The notes beneath the pieces were generated by a model. The model saw only the letters and a program-made list of their open reading frames with translations. It did not search any database and was not told the origin of the DNA. A DNA stretch of 64,000 nt from Chloroflexota bacterium (GTDB lineage: Bacteria > Chloroflexota > Anaerolineae > JAAYZQ01), in contig JAGVRI010000002.1 in the NCBI GenBank assembly GCA_018606645.1, positions 310,001-374,000 of the forward strand, in the 5' to 3' direction. This document shows positions 1 through 27,115 of the stretch, in pieces (position 1 is the first letter of the stretch; every line of letters begins with the position of its first letter). A program made the translations under genes and the position numbers.

Positions 1-173
1 AGTGGCCCTTGCGCGGTCCCTGACACGCCCGATCTGCGTCCAGCATACAGCTTGCCGACCCACAGCAGGTAGCCGGCCAGTATCGCCGGAAACAAGAGGA
101 CACAAACCATGTAGAAGATGACCACGGCGATGGGATCACGCCGCGAGACCACCTTTGGATCGGATTTGGTCAT
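1..173 (-). CDS. Partial small membrane protein, unknown function
   Basis: An open frame runs from an ATG at 173 off the left edge of the window, giving at least 57 residues. The start MTKSDPKVVSRRDP is basic and polar. It is followed by one strongly hydrophobic stretch (about residues 15-39, with IAVVIFYMVCVLF and ILAGYLLWV) and then a basic tail, as in a single-span protein with a cytoplasmic N-terminus. An AGGGGTG ribosome-binding site lies 5 bases before the ATG. I do not recognise the family, and the end of the gene is not in the window. It points the same way as the cassette gene at 767-1462. Confidence 0.5.
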   Translation of the reverse strand, partial: MTKSDPKVVSRRDPIAVVIFYMVCVLLFPAILAGYLLWVGKLYAGRRSGVSGTAQGP

Positions 174-672
174 GGTTCACCCCTACCATGGGCCGGCTAA
201 CGGCTAGGTTTAGCCACGCCCACCCGCCCCCACGGGCAAGATGCACTTGAGTTGCCCGGACATGCCGCGCATCCCCCATTCGTTGGAAGCGCAAAGATGG
301 TTGTCGGGTAGAACTCGCCCTGGCCGGCGCGCCCGCCTTTGCTGCCCATGCCTCGCTCTTGCGGTTTCGGGTAAACCGGTTGCACCAAGCGCAGGTTGGG
401 CGGCCCTCTTCCTCGCTTCCGAACAACCCGTATCCGAAATATTCGTCAAGATTCTTGGGAACGACACCACCCCTTTGTACTTTCTTTACGGATTTCCTAT
501 TGGTGCCTATATCTCTGTCCCTATTCTATATGACATCGCTCCACAAGGGCTTCTGTAGCCTCGATACCTCCGATGTGTTTCGTAAGACCCACCTCAGCCG
601 AAGTCAAAGAAGGTCAGCCGATTATCCATTTTGACTACCTCTTGAGGGTGATTGCTCCGCTCTGGTGTTGCG
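174..672. other. Gene-poor stretch, no convincing ORF
   Basis: Several short frames cross this 500-base stretch on both strands, but none has a good ribosome-binding site or a recognisable protein. A short inverted repeat (ggctaa/ttagcc, 192-212) sits just upstream of the partial gene at 1-173. If the attC at 673-745 is real, this is either the next cassette, without a recognisable gene, or the original chromosomal flank. I could not find a second complete attC here. Confidence 0.4.
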
Positions 673-745
673 ACCTAACGGCCCGCGCATCAGCCACAGG
701 CCGCGAAGCGGCCGAAGGCCTATCGGCTGGATGCGCGTGTTGGGC
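673..745 (-). other. Integron attC recombination site
   Basis: Read on the minus strand, the site has R'' gcccaac (745-739, matching RYYYAAC), an L'' arm (737-725), a central hairpin region, an L' arm (695-684) and R' gttaggt (679-673, matching GTTRRRY). The two L arms pair over 12 bases, with exactly one extra unpaired C on the L'' side. That is where canonical attC sites carry an extrahelical base, and it fixes the orientation as minus. The site lies 21 bases past the stop of the gene at 767-1462, the usual position of attC behind a cassette gene. The centre (ggccgcgaagcggcc) can form an inner hairpin. Confidence 0.75.
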
Positions 746-766
746 TTGCCAGTAGTGAATGACGAA

Positions 767-1462
767 TTACCATACGCCCGGCACTAGACGGAAACGAACC
801 TTCTCAGCATATTCCTTGTAGCCAGGCAACTCGGCAAGCAGCGTCTTGTCCTCCAGTGCGGTGCGGATCACAATGCCGATGCAGAGAAGAATGATTGGCG
901 GAAAAGCTAACAAAGAGTCAAGCAACAACGGGATGCCACACATCGCGATTGCACCAGTGATGTAGGCGGGATGGCGGACGATGGCATAGGGCCCCGTGGC
1001 CACTACCGTTTGGCCGCGGTCTTTCTGGATGCGCACGTGCGAAGAGAAAAACGCGTTGACGGCCATTGCCCACGTGCCAACCGAATAGCCGAAAACCAGA
1101 AGAGCCAGGCCAAGCCAATGTACCCAGTCAGGCATAGAGGTGGACCAGCCCAATCGTTTGTCCAGACCGGCGATCAACACAGCCAGAAACGGCAGCCAAA
1201 GTGCGATGAGAGGCACGATCCATCTGTCCCAGCTCTTGGTATCCTGCATCGCACTGGCGGTAGCCCTTTCCCGGGCAAAGCCGGGGTGCAGACGGATGGC
1301 AATGATGCGGCTGACAAGTGTGTACAGTATCATCGAGCTTGTATAGAGCCAGCCCAGGTCCCACCCCCAATCACCCGAAGCCAAGAAGGGTGACAAGAGA
1401 AGCAGGATGAGGGACAGGAAGTTGACAACGATGGAGATCCTTATATGTTTCTGATCAGACAT
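767..1462 (-). CDS. Isoprenylcysteine carboxyl methyltransferase-family membrane protein
   Basis: 231 residues with several membrane spans: about residues 10-29, 35-55, 85-105, 117-138 and a long hydrophobic segment near 175-200. The C-terminal half carries the family pattern: RHPAY (about 163-167) followed, after hydrophobic helices, by an ELPGYKEYAEKV tail ending in RLVPGVW. ICMT/PEMT-like enzymes use S-adenosylmethionine to methylate small or lipidic substrates at the membrane. The substrate here cannot be told. The start is ATG at 1462. The gene lies inside an apparent integron cassette (attC at 673-745), so it was probably acquired horizontally, and a consensus promoter at 1644-1672 reads into it from outside the cassette. 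Confidence 0.8.
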   Translation of the reverse strand: MSDQKHIRISIVVNFLSLILLLLSPFLASGDWGWDLGWLYTSSMILYTLVSRIIAIRLHPGFARERATASAMQDTKSWDRWIVPLIALWLPFLAVLIAGLDKRLGWSTSMPDWVHWLGLALLVFGYSVGTWAMAVNAFFSSHVRIQKDRGQTVVATGPYAIVRHPAYITGAIAMCGIPLLLDSLLAFPPIILLCIGIVIRTALEDKTLLAELPGYKEYAEKVRFRLVPGVW

Positions 1463-1643
1463 AGTTCAACTCTGCAGTGAATGGCAAGCCCAACCATTCG
1501 GTATACGGAATCCACCTTTACTGCCAAGACAGCCTCTTGGATAGATTCTAACTAGAACCCCGAATCGCCAGTATCACGGAGAATCTCCATAACAGGCCTC
1601 ACTGGGGCAACTCAAGGTGTCTGGCATGAATCTCCACAATTAC

Positions 1644-1672
1644 ATTATAGATCAAAACCCGAGATCTGTCAA
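1644..1672 (-). promoter_or_regulatory. Consensus sigma-70-type promoter reading into the cassette
   Basis: On the minus strand TTGACA (1672-1667) is followed after 17 bases by TATAAT (1649-1644), a perfect match to the housekeeping consensus. Transcription would start near 1637, about 175 bases before the methyltransferase ATG and outside the cassette boundary at 1494, much as an integron Pc promoter drives cassettes. The ten bases TTGACAGATC are shared with the oppositely directed gyrB promoter. Confidence 0.75.
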
Positions 1673-1784
1673 ATGATAGGAAATCAGCCATGAGCAATGA
1701 TCGGCAGCCACGTCTTGCAGCGTGGCGGACTGTCCATCCGCAGCCCGCCGCATGGACAGCAGTTGGGGCAGGCAGATTTATCTT

Positions 1785-1813
1785 TTGACAGATCGCTTTT
1801 GTCGTGATACAAT
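1785..1813 (+). promoter_or_regulatory. gyrB promoter
   Basis: TTGACA (1785-1790), a 17-base spacer and TACAAT (1808-1813). The predicted transcript start is near 1820. That excludes the upstream in-frame ATGs at 1722 and 1812 as gyrB starts and leaves a leader of about 30 bases before the GTG at 1851. The rest of 1495-1784 holds only the opposing promoter at 1644-1672. Confidence 0.8.
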
Positions 1814-1850
1814 GATTTCAGTCAATCTCGGACGCAGCAAGGAAGTACAG

Positions 1851-3800
1851 GTGGCCAGGAGTCAAACAACACCCAGCTACGAAGTCACCGACATCCAGGT
1901 TCTGGAAGGGTTGGAGGCGGTGCGCCGTCGCCCCGGCATGTACATCGGTTCCACCGATAGCCGTGGACTGCACCATCTGGTGCAGGAGGTGGTGGACAAC
2001 AGCGTGGACGAGGCGCTGGCCGGCGCCTGCGACCGGATCGAGGTGACGATCCATCCCGACAGCTCGATCACGGTGCAGGATAACGGTCGCGGCATTCCCG
2101 TCGGTCCCCACCCGACCCAGAAAAAGCCGGACGGCTCGCCGATGGACACCCTGGAGGTGGTCATGACCATCCTCCACGCCGGCGGCAAGTTCGGCGGCGG
2201 CGGATACAAGGTCGCTTCGGGATTGCACGGCGTGGGCGTATCGGCGGTCAACGCTCTGTCGGAATGGCTCGAGGTGGAGGTGCGACGCGACGGCAAGGTC
2301 TACCGGCAGCGGTATCAGCGGGGCAAGCCGGTCACGCCAGTCGAACTGATCGGTCGAACCCGGCCCGAAGACACCGGCACCCGGACTACTTTCCTGGCCG
2401 ATCAGACCATCTTCAAGAGCCTGGATTACAAATTCGAGACATTGGCCCAGCGCTTCCGGGAAATGGCCTTCCTGACCCGGGGCCTGACGATCCGCCTGGT
2501 CGATCTCCGGGTGATCAAGGGCGAACCGCCGTGGCGGGAGACAACCTTTTACTTTGAGGGCGGGATCGCCTCCTTTGTGCGCTACCTGAACAAGAACCGG
2601 GAGGTGTTGCATCCGCCGATCTATGTCGAGAAGCAGGTCAACGGCACCCTGGTGGAAGCGGCCATTCAGTACACCGATGGGTATGCCGAGTCGGTCTTTG
2701 CCTTTGCCAACAATATCAACACTGTCGATGGAGGAACCCATCTGACCGGCTTTCGCTCGGCCCTGACCCGCGTGCTGAACGACTATGCGCGGAGCAAAGG
2801 GTTGCTCAAGGAGAAGGACCTGAACTTTTCGGGCGAGGACACGCGCCAGGGACTTACCGCCGTGCTCAGCGTCAAGATGACCGACCCGCAGTTCGAGAGC
2901 CAGACCAAAGCCAAGTTGGGCAATGCCGAGGTGCGGGGCCAGGTTGAATCGGTGGTCGCCGAGGCGCTGGCCGCTTTTCTAGAGGAAAACGGCAGCGTCG
3001 CCCGCAAGATCGTGCAAAAGTGCATCACTTCGTCACGGGCGCGAGAAGCCGCCCGCCAGGCCCGCGACCTGGTGATCCGCAAGAGCGCCCTGGAAAGCAT
3101 GACCCTGCCCGGGAAGCTGGCCGACTGCTCGGATCGGGACCCGACCAAGACCGAGATCTTTATCGTCGAAGGCGATAGCGCCGGCGGCAGCGCCAAGCAG
3201 GGCCGGGACCGTCGTTTCCAGGCGATCTTGCCCTTGCGGGGCAAAATCTTGAATGTAGAAAAGGCGCGACTGGACAAGATCCTGAGCAGCAACGAGATCA
3301 AGGCCATTATCACTGCCCTGGGCACCGGCGTTGGTTCGCAGTTCAACCTGGAGGGGTTGCGCTACAACCGGGTGGTCATCATGACCGACGCCGATGTGGA
3401 CGGCAGCCACATCCGCACCTTGCTGCTGACCTTCTTCTACCGCTACATGGAACCGCTCATTGAGAATGGTCATCTGTTCATCGCCCAACCTCCCCTGTAC
3501 CGCATCGAGACGGGCAAGAGCCACCACTATGTCTATACCGAGGAGCAAAAAGAGCAATTGCTGAAAAAGCTCAAAGGCGAGAAGGTGGCCATCCAGCGTT
3601 ATAAGGGGCTGGGGGAGATGAATCCGGAGCAGTTGTGGGAAACGACGTTAAATCCCGAAAACCGGACGCTCCTCCAGGTGACCATCGAAGATGCGGCAGC
3701 CGCCGACCGGATTTTCGACATGCTGATGGGCGAGAGCGTCCCGCCCCGCCGACGGTTCATCCAGACGCACGCCAAAAATGTGCGCAATCTGGATGTGTAA
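1851..3800 (+). CDS. gyrB: DNA gyrase subunit B
   Basis: 649 residues, the usual length for GyrB without the proteobacterial insertion. It is the ATPase/TOPRIM subunit of the A2B2 gyrase that introduces negative supercoils. Visible motifs in order: RRRPGMYIG and the GHKL ATP-binding residues ([31 protein letters not shown]), [27 protein letters not shown], the acidic DADVDGSHI metal site, [10 protein letters not shown], and a C-terminal [18 protein letters not shown] place the start at GTG 1851: AAGGAAG lies 5 bases upstream, and the promoter at 1785-1813 rules out earlier codons. gyrA is not nearby. The stop is only 8 bases from the convergent kinase gene. ParE is the alternative, but the C-terminus fits GyrB better. 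Confidence 0.95.
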
Positions 3801-3808
3801 GGTCACCT

Positions 3809-4462
3809 CTACTTTGTTGGATTGTTGGGAAAGATGACCTCTTCCTTCCCGGCCAGCTTGTCCTGAATGCGCTGGACCACAATATCCAGGTGTTTGGGCT
3901 TGTGGACAAAATCCAGGTCATCAGTGTGTAACGTCAGCACCGGACAGAGATCGAACGTCTGGATCCACTCCTCGTAAAAAGACTCGAGCAATGACAAGTA
4001 CTCGGCAGTGATGCCGCTCTCGATGGCCCGCCCCCGACGGGTAATCCGGTCCATGAGCACCGGGACCGGGGCTTTGAGATAAAGCAGCAGGTCGGGAGGG
4101 GGTAAGTTATCCACAACCAGATCAAAGACGCGCCGATAGGCCTGGTAATCGCGTTCCGACAGGTTGCCCATGTGGTGCAGCGCCCGGGCAAAGATGTGCG
4201 CATCCTCGTAGATGCTGCGATCGGCGATGGCCGACTCGGGACAACAGGCCAGGGCCAGATGCTGTTGCGCCCGGTGGCCCAGGAAAAAGACCTGGAGATG
4301 AAAGGACCACTGGCGCATATCGGCGTAAAAGTCGGCCAGGTACGGATTGTCGGCGACCGATTCAAACGATGTGCGCCAGCCCAGCCGGGCGCCCAGCCGC
4401 TCGGTGAGCGAAGTCTTGCCGGTGCCGATGTTGCCGGCGACGAGAACCAGACGTTTCGTCAT
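3809..4462 (-). CDS. Deoxynucleoside kinase (dGK/dAK type)
   Basis: About 217 residues. The N-terminal P-loop reads AGNIGTGKTS, followed by FESVADNPYL and the DRSIYEDAHIF motif (DRS box) typical of the deoxyadenosine/deoxyguanosine kinase family. ITRRGRAIE forms the arginine-rich lid that closes over ATP. The enzyme phosphorylates deoxynucleosides at the 5' position for dNTP salvage. The start is ATG 4462 with GGAGGG 5-6 bases upstream. An in-frame TTG at 4474 overlaps that ribosome-binding site and is unlikely. It is the last gene of the long minus-strand run that begins at 13823. The base preference (A, G or C) cannot be decided from sequence. Confidence 0.88.
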   Translation of the reverse strand: MTKRLVLVAGNIGTGKTSLTERLGARLGWRTSFESVADNPYLADFYADMRQWSFHLQVFFLGHRAQQHLALACCPESAIADRSIYEDAHIFARALHHMGNLSERDYQAYRRVFDLVVDNLPPPDLLLYLKAPVPVLMDRITRRGRAIESGITAEYLSLLESFYEEWIQTFDLCPVLTLHTDDLDFVHKPKHLDIVVQRIQDKLAGKEEVIFPNNPTK

Positions 4463-13873: not shown

Positions 13874-14504
13874 ACCTTCTGACCGGTAACGAGAGAAAAT
13901 CGCCGGCGGCCAGTGCGGATCAACAAATCAACGCGGACATCATCAGGACAAGCCCGACGATTGGTTCGCCCTCCGGTACGTTCGCCCGCCGCTGGAAGCG
14001 GCGGGCTCCGCCAATAAAGCCCCGTTCGGGGCTGGCCAACAGCCCGCCGGGTTTGGCTGGCTGAGCCCGATGGTTCATCATTGGCCGAGAGTGCCTAGCC
14101 TGGCTCACGATTCAGGGTGCAAATCGTCGGGCGGGCCATGTCCGGTTGAATTCGTCACGATACAAAAGCCGCGCCTGTGGGGCGGCGGCTAGGCGTCCCC
14201 CGGCGGGGTCTTCACCCCTACCTAACCTCCCCCATCAAGGGGGAGGGACTCAGATACCCCCTCCCCTGGTGGGAGGGGCGGGGGGAGGGGGCCGGCAGGG
14301 AGGCTCTCCGGCGCAGGCCGACGGCCAGCCGAAGGCTCTTGAGGAGCGATTTCAATCGCCGTCTATTTTCGAGGGGGGGTGGGAGTGGAGCCTTCAGGCG
14401 GTGGACCAGCTAAAGCCTCGACTCCCGCGTGCGGGGAGCGGTCTATTTTCGACGGAGTTGCCATGCACGGCAGGGCGCCACGAGGGATGAGAATATCGAG
14501 GGGC
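13874..14504. repeat. Intergenic cluster of GC-rich hairpins, no gene
   Basis: This 630-base stretch separates the end of meaB from the ECF promoter. It holds several perfect or near-perfect palindromes: a 9-bp stem at 13984-13992/13998-14006, gcccc/ggggc at 14019-14032, cctccccc/gggggagg at 14226-14246, and cccctccc/gggagggg at 14258-14278. A repeat unit shared with 26 kb follows at 14383-14424. None is followed by a clear T-run on either strand, so they look more like dispersed palindromic repeats than classical terminators. Frames here are short and lack ribosome-binding sites. Confidence 0.6.
14383..14424. repeat. Imperfect-palindrome repeat, copy 1
   Basis: A 42-base unit begins gagtggagccttcaggcgg and ends ccagctaaagcctcgactc. 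The two halves are near reverse complements (about 14 of 19 positions), giving a long hairpin. The same pattern recurs at 26032-26074 and 26100-26140. Confidence 0.65.
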
Positions 14505-15569
14505 CTAACCACCCAGCAGGTGTTGGCTGGCTGTATAGGGATCGATCTCGCGGCGTACGATCCGGTCGATCAGCGCCGCCAGCTTTTCCCCCTGAGCGCA
14601 AGCCAGGACCCGACGCAGCGACTCTTGCTGGATGATCGTCTCCAGTTCAGCCGCCGCGCGTTCCCGTTCTCGCTGGACGAGTTGCCCGCTCTGCTCCAGA
14701 TAGGCTCGATGGGCCAGGATCGCAGTGGCCAGATCCACCACCCCTTCATGGCGGGTGGCGATGGTCTTGAAAATGGGCGGGCGCCAGGCGGATGGCCGGG
14801 CTGGTGGTAGCGGACCTTGGCTCGGCGGTTCTTCGCCCCCGGTGACGGTCCGCACCACTTCCATCAACCGTCCGTGGTGCAGGACTGTGGCTGTGCCACC
14901 GAGGTCCAGATCGAGCATCATCCGCAGGGCCATCACCGCGTGATCGGCTCCTTCGTGGTCGGCCTTGTTGACGGCAAAGATATCAGCGATCTCTAGGATA
15001 CCGGCTTTGATGGCCTGCACATCATCGCCCAGACCCGGCACTTCGACGACGACGGTGGTGTGGGCGGTGCGGGCAATATCGACTTCTGCCTGGCCGGCGC
15101 CCACTGTCTCGATAAAGATCAGCTCAAAGCCGGCCGCATCCAACACCTTGACCGCGTCGGCCGTCGCCCAAGCCAATCCCCCCAGGCTCCCGCGGCTGGC
15201 CATGCTGCGGATAAAAATGCCCGGGTCGCCGGCCAGGTCCCGCATGCGGATCCGGTCGCCCAAGATGGCTCCGCCGGAGAAGGGACTGGTCGGGTCAACG
15301 GCGATGATTCCCACAGTTTTGGGGGAGCCTCCCTCGCCTCGTTCACCGGTGGCGCCTCGGCGAAAGTACAGGGCCAGAGCGTTGACCAGCGAGCTTTTGC
15401 CGCTGCCCGGCGGGCCGGTCACCCCGACAATATGGGCCCGTCCGGTGTGGGGGTGGAGGGCGGCCAGCGTCGCCTGGGCCTCAGCCCCGTTGTCCTCGAT
15501 GAGGCTGATGGTCCGCGCAATCGCCCGTCGGTCGCCGGCCAGGACCCCTTCGACCAGATGATCCGTCAC
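14505..15569 (-). CDS. meaB: Methylmalonyl-CoA mutase-associated GTPase MeaB
   Basis: 354 residues. It is a G3E P-loop GTPase that gates cobalamin loading and protects B12-dependent acyl-CoA mutases. Seen: Walker [13 protein letters not shown], the [22 protein letters not shown] block specific to MeaB/Arg[12 protein letters not shown] (switch III/Walker B region) and the guanine-specificity NKAD. The GTG start overlaps the stop of the B12 subunit by 4 bases (GTGA), so it is coupled to the mutase it serves. Two mutase large subunits lie upstream, and the gene's position favours the isobutyryl-type enzyme as its partner, though it may serve both. Confidence 0.95.
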
Positions 15570-25976: not shown

Positions 25977-26009
25977 CTTTCAGCCGACGGATGGCAGGGG
26001 TGGGGCCTT

Positions 26010-26141
26010 GTGGCTGACGCCTCAACTCCCGGAGTGAAGCGTTCAGGTGGTTTTCCAGCTAAAGCCTCCATTCCCGTTCTGAGGGGGCTTCGACTCCGCG
26101 AATGAAGGCTTCAGGTGGTCTCCGGCTGAAGCTTCGACTCC
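26010..26141. repeat. Tandem imperfect-palindrome repeats, copies 2 and 3
   Basis: Two full units (26032-26074 and 26100-26140) and a preceding half unit (26011-26030) share the pattern gagtgaagNcttcaggtggt ... ccagctaaagcctcgactcc with the unit at 14383-14424. Each unit can fold on itself. The last copy runs into the 3' end of the GT2 gene and supplies its final nine codons and stop. No T-run follows, so they are not obvious terminators. The spacing suggests insertion of a dispersed repeat behind the gene. Confidence 0.65.
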
Positions 26142-27115
26142 TGGGCGAAAGGGGAGTTGGTCAGGATCGATTCGACATAATCCAGCGGCACTCGCCGCGC
26201 AGCCTGGATGCGCCGCCGCTTGCCCAGCATTCTGGGCCAGCCGAACAGGCCAGCCAGTTGCCCGCGCAAGCGGGCCCGGGCCGCCTCACCGCGCCAGGCT
26301 CGCAGCGCATCGCAAAAGATGGCCCACTGGGCGCGGACCACCTGCGGCCAATATTTCCGCAACAATGCCCCGGGGTAATTCTTGGCGATGACCCACAGCG
26401 TGTTCCGACCGGTATAGAAGCTGGCGATAGGGCCCCCGCCGGTCGCGCTCAGCTTGTGGTAGACGACGGCATCCGGCGTGTACCAGCAGCGCCAACCGGC
26501 CAACTGTGCCCGCCAGTTCAGGTCTACATCTTCACAATACATAAAGAATGATTCATCAAAGAGACCGATGTCGTCCAGCATAGCCCGTCGATAGGCCACG
26601 GCGCCGCCGCATCCACCAAAGATCCAGCCTGGTTCATCAAACTGCCCTTCATCCTGCTGCCACACCCCCCGGTTGAAGGGGATGCCGTCTACGCCATAGC
26701 CATCGCCGGCGGAGTGGATGACACGGCGCCGATCAAAGAGCAGGATCTTGGCTGCGGCGATGCCTGCTTCAGGGTGATCGAGGAGGGCAGTCACCAGGGC
26801 TTCGACAAAATCGGGGGCCGCTTCCGTATCGTTGTTGAGCGAGATCAATACGTCCCCCAAGGCAGCGCGAAACCCCAGGTTGTTGCCCCCGGTCAGTCCG
26901 AGGTTACGATCCAAGGCCAGTAACCGTACCTCCGGATATCGCTCCGCCACCAGAGCTGGCGACCCGTCGGTTGAGCCGTTGTCCACCAGGATCACCTCAC
27001 AATGCGGGTAGGTTTGGGCCCGCAGGGCGTTGAGGCATATCGGCAGATGGTGAGCGCCGTTCCAATTGGGGATGACAATCGAAGCCAAGGGCTTCCGAAC
27101 GCGATCAAGGTTCAT
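26111..27115 (-). CDS. Glycosyltransferase family 2
   Basis: About 334 residues. It has a GT-A fold with SIVIPNWNGAHHL at the start, VDNGSTDGSP, NLGLTGGNNLGFRAA, the DxD-type metal motif in LISLNNDTEAAPDF, and FFMYCEDVDLNWR (ED acceptor/catalytic region). This pattern fits the rhamnosyltransferase (WbbL/RfbF-like) branch, and the preceding gene makes or reduces dTDP-sugar, so transfer of rhamnose to a cell-surface glycan is likely. The start may be ATG 27115 or TTG 27124 (AGGA 5 bases upstream). The last nine residues (ESKLQPETT region) are encoded by the palindromic repeat at 26100-26140. Confidence 0.88.
   Translation of the reverse strand: MNLDRVRKPLASIVIPNWNGAHHLPICLNALRAQTYPHCEVILVDNGSTDGSPALVAERYPEVRLLALDRNLGLTGGNNLGFRAALGDVLISLNNDTEAAPDFVEALVTALLDHPEAGIAAAKILLFDRRRVIHSAGDGYGVDGIPFNRGVWQQDEGQFDEPGWIFGGCGGAVAYRRAMLDDIGLFDESFFMYCEDVDLNWRAQLAGWRCWYTPDAVVYHKLSATGGGPIASFYTGRNTLWVIAKNYPGALLRKYWPQVVRAQWAIFCDALRAWRGEAARARLRGQLAGLFGWPRMLGKRRRIQAARRVPLDYVESILTNSPFAQESKLQPETT

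Follow-up and report, generated by a model that had tools for sequence, protein, structure and literature searches.

Integrons are usually pictured as a single integrase with a single docking site and array. An original prediction, made from a 64,000-nucleotide stretch of a Chloroflexota genome (here called the window), placed an integron gene cassette with an attC site beside gyrB, with no integrase up to that gene. How does a cassette come to lie there, and into what was it inserted? Our analysis indicates that the site is very probably an integron platform that has lost its integrase, and one of at least 11 related platforms on the chromosome. This answer draws on direct observations of the anatomy of the site, the number of its copies, the decay of intI, a mini-cassette shared between platforms, and the absence of a comparable site beside gyrB in relatives.

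The cassette and the platform beside gyrB

The features of the site are as follows.

679..1493, minus strand: complete gene cassette of 815 bp that begins with TTGGGC, just past the attI G (1494), and ends at G 679 in its own R' box
673..745, minus strand: attC of the cassette (R'' 745-739; L'' about 737-725; L' 696-685; R' 679-673), supported by a covariance model, a strict scan, covariation and complementarity to the cassette start
767..1462, minus strand: cassette ORF of 231 aa, a membrane methyltransferase of the PEMT/ICMT (isoprenylcysteine carboxyl methyltransferase-like) kind, from Pfam
1488..1592, minus strand: attI site, with the core G at 1494 and imperfect direct repeats (GGATTCCGTATAC and similar), from its genome copies and models
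1644..1649, minus strand: -10 box TATAAT, after a 17-base spacer
1667..1672, minus strand: -35 box TTGACA (Pc-like)
1690..1755, plus strand: intI relic, a start codon (1690-1692) followed by a C-terminal tail
1811..3800, plus strand: gyrB, the chromosomal neighbour, given for context

The attC had been proposed from its RYYYAAC/GTTRRRY boxes, paired L arms, single extrahelical base and position 21 bases after a gene, all of which are present. On the minus strand the R'' box reads GCCCAAC and the R' box GTTAGGT, the L arms are complementary (CGCGCATC.CAGCC pairs with GGCTGATGCGCG), L'' carries one extra unpaired base, and the site begins 21 bases 3' of the stop of a single co-oriented ORF (1462..767). 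The match noted earlier, of the cassette start (1494-1483) with the complement of 750-739, has no mismatch and reaches 13 bases: the start is identical at 13 of 13 positions to the complement of the 13 bases ending in the cassette's own R'', as expected if the cassette circle closes via its own attC. In a strict scan that combined the two R boxes with arm pairing, this site scored 12.5 and the runner-up in the 64-kb window only 5.0; no score of 9 or more was obtained in 60 dinucleotide-preserving shuffles of the window (3.84 Mb). A covariance model (R2) scored the site at 72 bits (E 9e-17), partly by construction, the model having been built from seven attCs of the host genome including this one. 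The same model recovers attCs beside full-length intI genes in genomes outside the training set, with up to 74 bits, and covariation in the stem over 39 of its matches amounted to 74 double-changed cells vs 27 in shuffled and 9-40 in slid controls. Folding of the minus strand, proposed as a check, was informative in part: the L arms pair in the minimum-energy fold, with an unpaired base between the two stem halves, but the energy of the single-stranded site does not discriminate (z -1.37). No Rfam match was found in window positions 1-4000, and a search with the complement of the cassette start found no second cassette 3' of the attC. Mobility is indicated by a homologous gene that is a cassette elsewhere, and by relatives in which the site lacks the gene. 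The stretch 679-1493 is thus confirmed as a complete integron gene cassette with its attC.

The assignment of the cargo as a membrane methyltransferase was borne out by Pfam (PF04191, 36.4 bits; PF04140, 35.5 bits); the protein stays below the NCBIfam equivalog cut-off for ICMT. Its homolog in a relative (G105, stretch L092) is a cassette with an attC on both sides, and a platform on contig C5 of the host genome has a further PEMT/ICMT gene as its first cassette. Genes of this family were found in 91 of 298 genomes of the class, and because the family is so widespread the cassette gene was probably recruited from a class-wide pool. Tandem clusters of the family are common in the class. A paralog with 44% identity lies just 2 kb left of the window (G000:C2:308201-308845, G000 being the host genome), with no attC detected at it.

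What the original prediction missed is upstream of the cassette. An attI and a predicted promoter with perfect sigma-70 consensus boxes, aimed into the cassette, occupy 1488-1672 on the minus strand. Window positions 1488-1754 align to other places in the host genome (E 1e-23 to 1e-10); the aligned copies have the promoter and the repeats in common, and the likeness ends at the GTTRRRY core, so we read the element as an attI. It scores 119.9 bits with a model of nine attI sequences (R1) and 65 bits with a broader model (R3). The direct repeats are likely IntI binding sites. Beyond the promoter, an ORF at 1690 starts like the intI of relatives and a few codons later enters the last ~17 residues of that protein. 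This tail (1697-1747) corresponds to about residues 302-318 of IntI, about 300 codons having been deleted, and is 76% identical over 17 residues to IntI of relatives (tblastn), at the expected place and on the expected strand. Comparable intI deletions were seen in stretches L015, L019 and L144, and more weakly in L146. The claim of no integrase up to gyrB therefore holds for an intact gene and fails for the relic at 1690-1755; likewise, the cassette lacks an integrase as proposed, yet it is no orphan, being led by an attI.

Read in order, the site consists of an intI relic, a predicted Pc promoter, attI, a single captured cassette and attC. IntI would have cut the attI core (G^TTRRRY) and inserted the cassette as a folded single strand, and a predicted sigma-70 promoter in the former intI-attI spacer most likely now transcribes the captured methyltransferase gene. 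Examination of the gyrB flank, suggested as a further check, showed no attI, intI or cassette gene upstream of gyrB in any of 13 relatives.

Platforms across the host genome

Genomic searches for further attC and intI sequences, also among the proposed checks, were positive. Another attI with an intI stub sits 4.5 kb left of window base 1, and the 4.27 Mb host genome contains 11 strong (66-140 bits) and two weak attI copies with R1; both R1 and R2 were trained partly on these sites. All 11 strong copies have TTGACA and TAnnAT separated by exactly 17 bases. Identity among the copies is 80% in a core region of 24 bases and 53% in the remainder. At E 0.1 or better, R2 found 27 attC matches genome-wide, of which at least 22 are in line with an attI and co-oriented, and most attIs head arrays of 1-5 cassettes. 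No attC was detected right behind the first gene at the platforms on C9 and C23, nor at the C24:30584 platform. Two attC matches at the start of contig C9 (1401-1466 and 2370-2498) have no attI in view on the contig side, and may belong to a platform truncated where the contig ends. Over 21 cassettes, the start matched the complement of its own R'' with a mean leading match of 6.0 bases vs 3.8 when mispaired; the rule holds for part of the cassettes, and some arrays have therefore been rearranged.

The relationships of the attI copies, 51-85% identical to one another, are not clearly those of one clade. Close pairs exist (C16/C3, 90% over 200 bases) and three copies on C2/C24 group together with a bootstrap of 99, while other pairs are only about 51% alike. 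The tree does not settle between one expansion and several arrivals, and a single origin is not strongly supported. No shared boundary beyond the intI stop, such as transposon ends, was seen among the platforms. Copies of an IS3-like transposase element were observed near two platforms (L020:3341-3949 and L041:7673-8710). The genome also contains, at many places, dispersed or tandem GC-rich repeats of ~50-150 bp that are unrelated to attI or attC (window 14375-14505 and 26002-26157; L014:7412-7832; L020:15978-16190; many in L021).

Every intI found in the host genome is truncated or broken by deletions or stops. Searches with an IntI family model and the IntI of a relative recovered residues 5-118 on C16, residues 5-53 at C2:305520, residues 6-32 joined to 292-320 on C5, residues 265-320 at C5:116286, and a short piece on C3. 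In C16, C2:305520, C5 and the window, the fragments point away from attI, where they are expected. These searches found no intact IntI in the assembly, which is 91% complete, and an intact gene could sit in the missing part. C24, C4 and C8 encode complete tyrosine recombinases; these candidates for an intact IntI were rejected, since they match IntI at 23-33% only and look Xer-like.

A mini-cassette (GTTAGSTCGGACGCTTCGCTCCGCTTGCGTCCGACCTAATGGGGCGG) was found in six platforms, always at an R' junction or just behind attI; the stretches read around the hits had it at no other place. Its places are as follows.

L016:9730-9777
L019:8197-8244
L020:9744-9791
L014:13596-13642
L017:10247-10281
L041:4628-4666

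By itself the mini-cassette has no ORF, and in some arrays it is fused to the leader of the next cassette. It forms a hairpin (GTTAGSTCGGACGC-loop-GCGTCCGACCTAAT-GGGGCGG) that recurs at junctions of attI or attC, and its distribution is best explained if IntI moved it between platforms. L016 and L041 share a 148-bp palindromic extension of the mini-cassette, 100% identical and inverted relative to attI.

The platforms may have multiplied in the genome, and they probably exchanged cassettes while the cell had an integrase. Each platform has retained attI and promoter and lost intI in part or entirely, and most have short arrays of their own.

Relatives and alternative readings

The original prediction had called mobile cassettes of this kind rarely described from this type of bacterium. 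That view was not upheld: integrons have been reported from Chloroflexota before (PMC8618304, PMC2426708), and near full-length or partial IntI was found in 20 of 60 genomes of the class, so the surprise is the number of platforms and not the host. The classical order of intI and attI is seen in relatives G013 and G018. R3, built from 20 sequences and run over 346 genomes of the class, counted 11 attIs in the host, three in G043, two in six genomes and one in the other matching genomes; it leans to the attI type of the host, and other types are undercounted. Two copies each of a different attI family are present in G105 and G017. G105 has a full-length intI with attI at C1:602537 and, 519 kb away, a second attI that is 91% identical, lies beside a tRNA gene with at most a decayed intI tail, and heads four attCs. 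This second attI, at L146:7205-8962 on the same contig, lies beside tRNA-Asp with two tandem methyltransferase cassettes, and the repeats of its family have TAAACCGT-like motifs. G034 and G043 have a full-length intI locus alongside attI-only loci with attCs. An exact attI-core pattern run over GTDB contigs gave one match, in a long ORF of a Micrarchaeota MAG contig; this is about chance level and was discarded.

More than one intI per genome has been reported for 22% of carriers (PMC9024848) or about 20% (PMC2426708). In the literature searched, with its thin coverage of subscription journals, no report of many attI sites in one chromosome was found.

Two readings of the platforms were weighed. 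We see about an even chance that several integrons arrived or were duplicated independently of one another and are all in decay, in which case the high count of attIs has no functional meaning and the captured genes have simply been domesticated. The deletions or stops in all intI copies agree with such decay, as do the diversity of the host's own attIs, which are not clearly monophyletic, and the frequency of intI pseudogenes in general, about one third (PMC2426708). Against it stand an attI core and a promoter spacing that all 11 copies have preserved, the recurrence of the mini-cassette across platforms, and the pattern of an intact platform accompanied by intI-less ones, which recurs in other lineages.

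The same observations can be read, tentatively, as a distributed integron: one integrase may load many scattered attI-promoter platforms in trans, the platforms persisting as its satellites, and captured genes would then be expressed from numerous loci in place of one array. The site beside gyrB might then be one such satellite, a non-autonomous attI that is live and not a relic, and G105, G034 and G043 might represent an intermediate state, with one intact integron and one or more satellites. Selection could conceivably maintain attI and promoter, with surplus copies of intI being lost. The coexistence in G105 of an intact intI and attI with a 91% identical attI leading its own attCs favours this arrangement, as do the corresponding loci in G034 and G043, the stronger conservation of the attI core than of its surroundings together with a promoter kept in every strong copy, and the mini-cassette common to six platforms. 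On the other hand, no intact IntI was found in the host, so its sites have no known server at present, and the attI conservation could date from before duplication.

It is highly improbable that the attI count is a binning artefact, with contigs drawn from several organisms. The assembly has many contigs and an estimated contamination of 1.4%, but three attI copies share a 395 kb contig with gyrB, another three share a 45 kb contig, and at least five more contigs carry attIs of a common family. That the attC is a chance hairpin of an ordinary dispersed palindromic element or terminator would fit the imperfect palindromy of attCs, the unremarkable folding energy and the other dispersed repeats of the genome, but is refuted by the box motifs, the covarying arm pairs, the shared orientation of attC and attI, the placement of the intI relics on the side where they belong, and relatives whose full-length intI genes have attCs next to them.

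Known systems and cargo

As a platform without its integrase, the site works like a chromosomal integron as far as its sequence tells, and falls outside the definition of a complete integron: its attI adjoins the first cassette, but an intact intI with the IntI-specific additional domain is lacking. Sedentary chromosomal integrons of the Vibrio superintegron type similarly combine attI, Pc (here a predicted promoter) and co-oriented cassettes, with attCs that are similar within a genome and a cargo of toxins and of restriction and methyltransferase genes. They have one intI and one long array; the host genome has 11 or more short platforms lying apart, and no intact intI was detected in it. 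A CALIN is a cluster of attC sites without integrase, for which the IntegronFinder default is two attCs (PMC9024848). It resembles our platforms in having cassettes with attC and no adjoining intact integrase. However, CALINs are set by attCs alone, whereas these platforms keep attI, promoter and intI relic, and several have a single attC, below that default, as does the site beside gyrB. Pseudo-integrons, in which an inactivated intI lies beside attI and cassettes (PMC2426708), differ in multiplicity (at least 11 here) and in that nearly all of intI has been deleted in most of our copies. The delta-attI gene cassettes of class 1 integrons (PMC12901181) likewise provide attI-type sites in more than one copy; there the attI is at cassette ends inside one array, whereas here whole platforms occupy distant chromosomal places.

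If our reading is correct, a genome can distribute capture and expression over at least 11 docking sites, and captured genes could escape the first-position rule of array expression. The platforms would also offer many natural replicates for the study of attI evolution and intI loss. Surveys by integrase or attC clusters overlook them, since many lack a recognisable intI and have at most one attC.

The cargo of the platforms is typical of integrons in its Mrr-type endonuclease (at two platforms), type III-like DNA methyltransferase, ParE-like and PIN toxins, and LCM and other methyltransferases, among them the second PEMT/ICMT gene on C5. NERD/helicase, D-aminopeptidase and a 1757-aa subtilase with LVIVD repeats were also found. 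The subtilase, which has cadherin-like domains as well, is encoded at L014:8068-13341 in a possible cassette of 5.6 kb, unusually large, bounded by an attC at 13707-13636 and a weak attC at 8056-7995.
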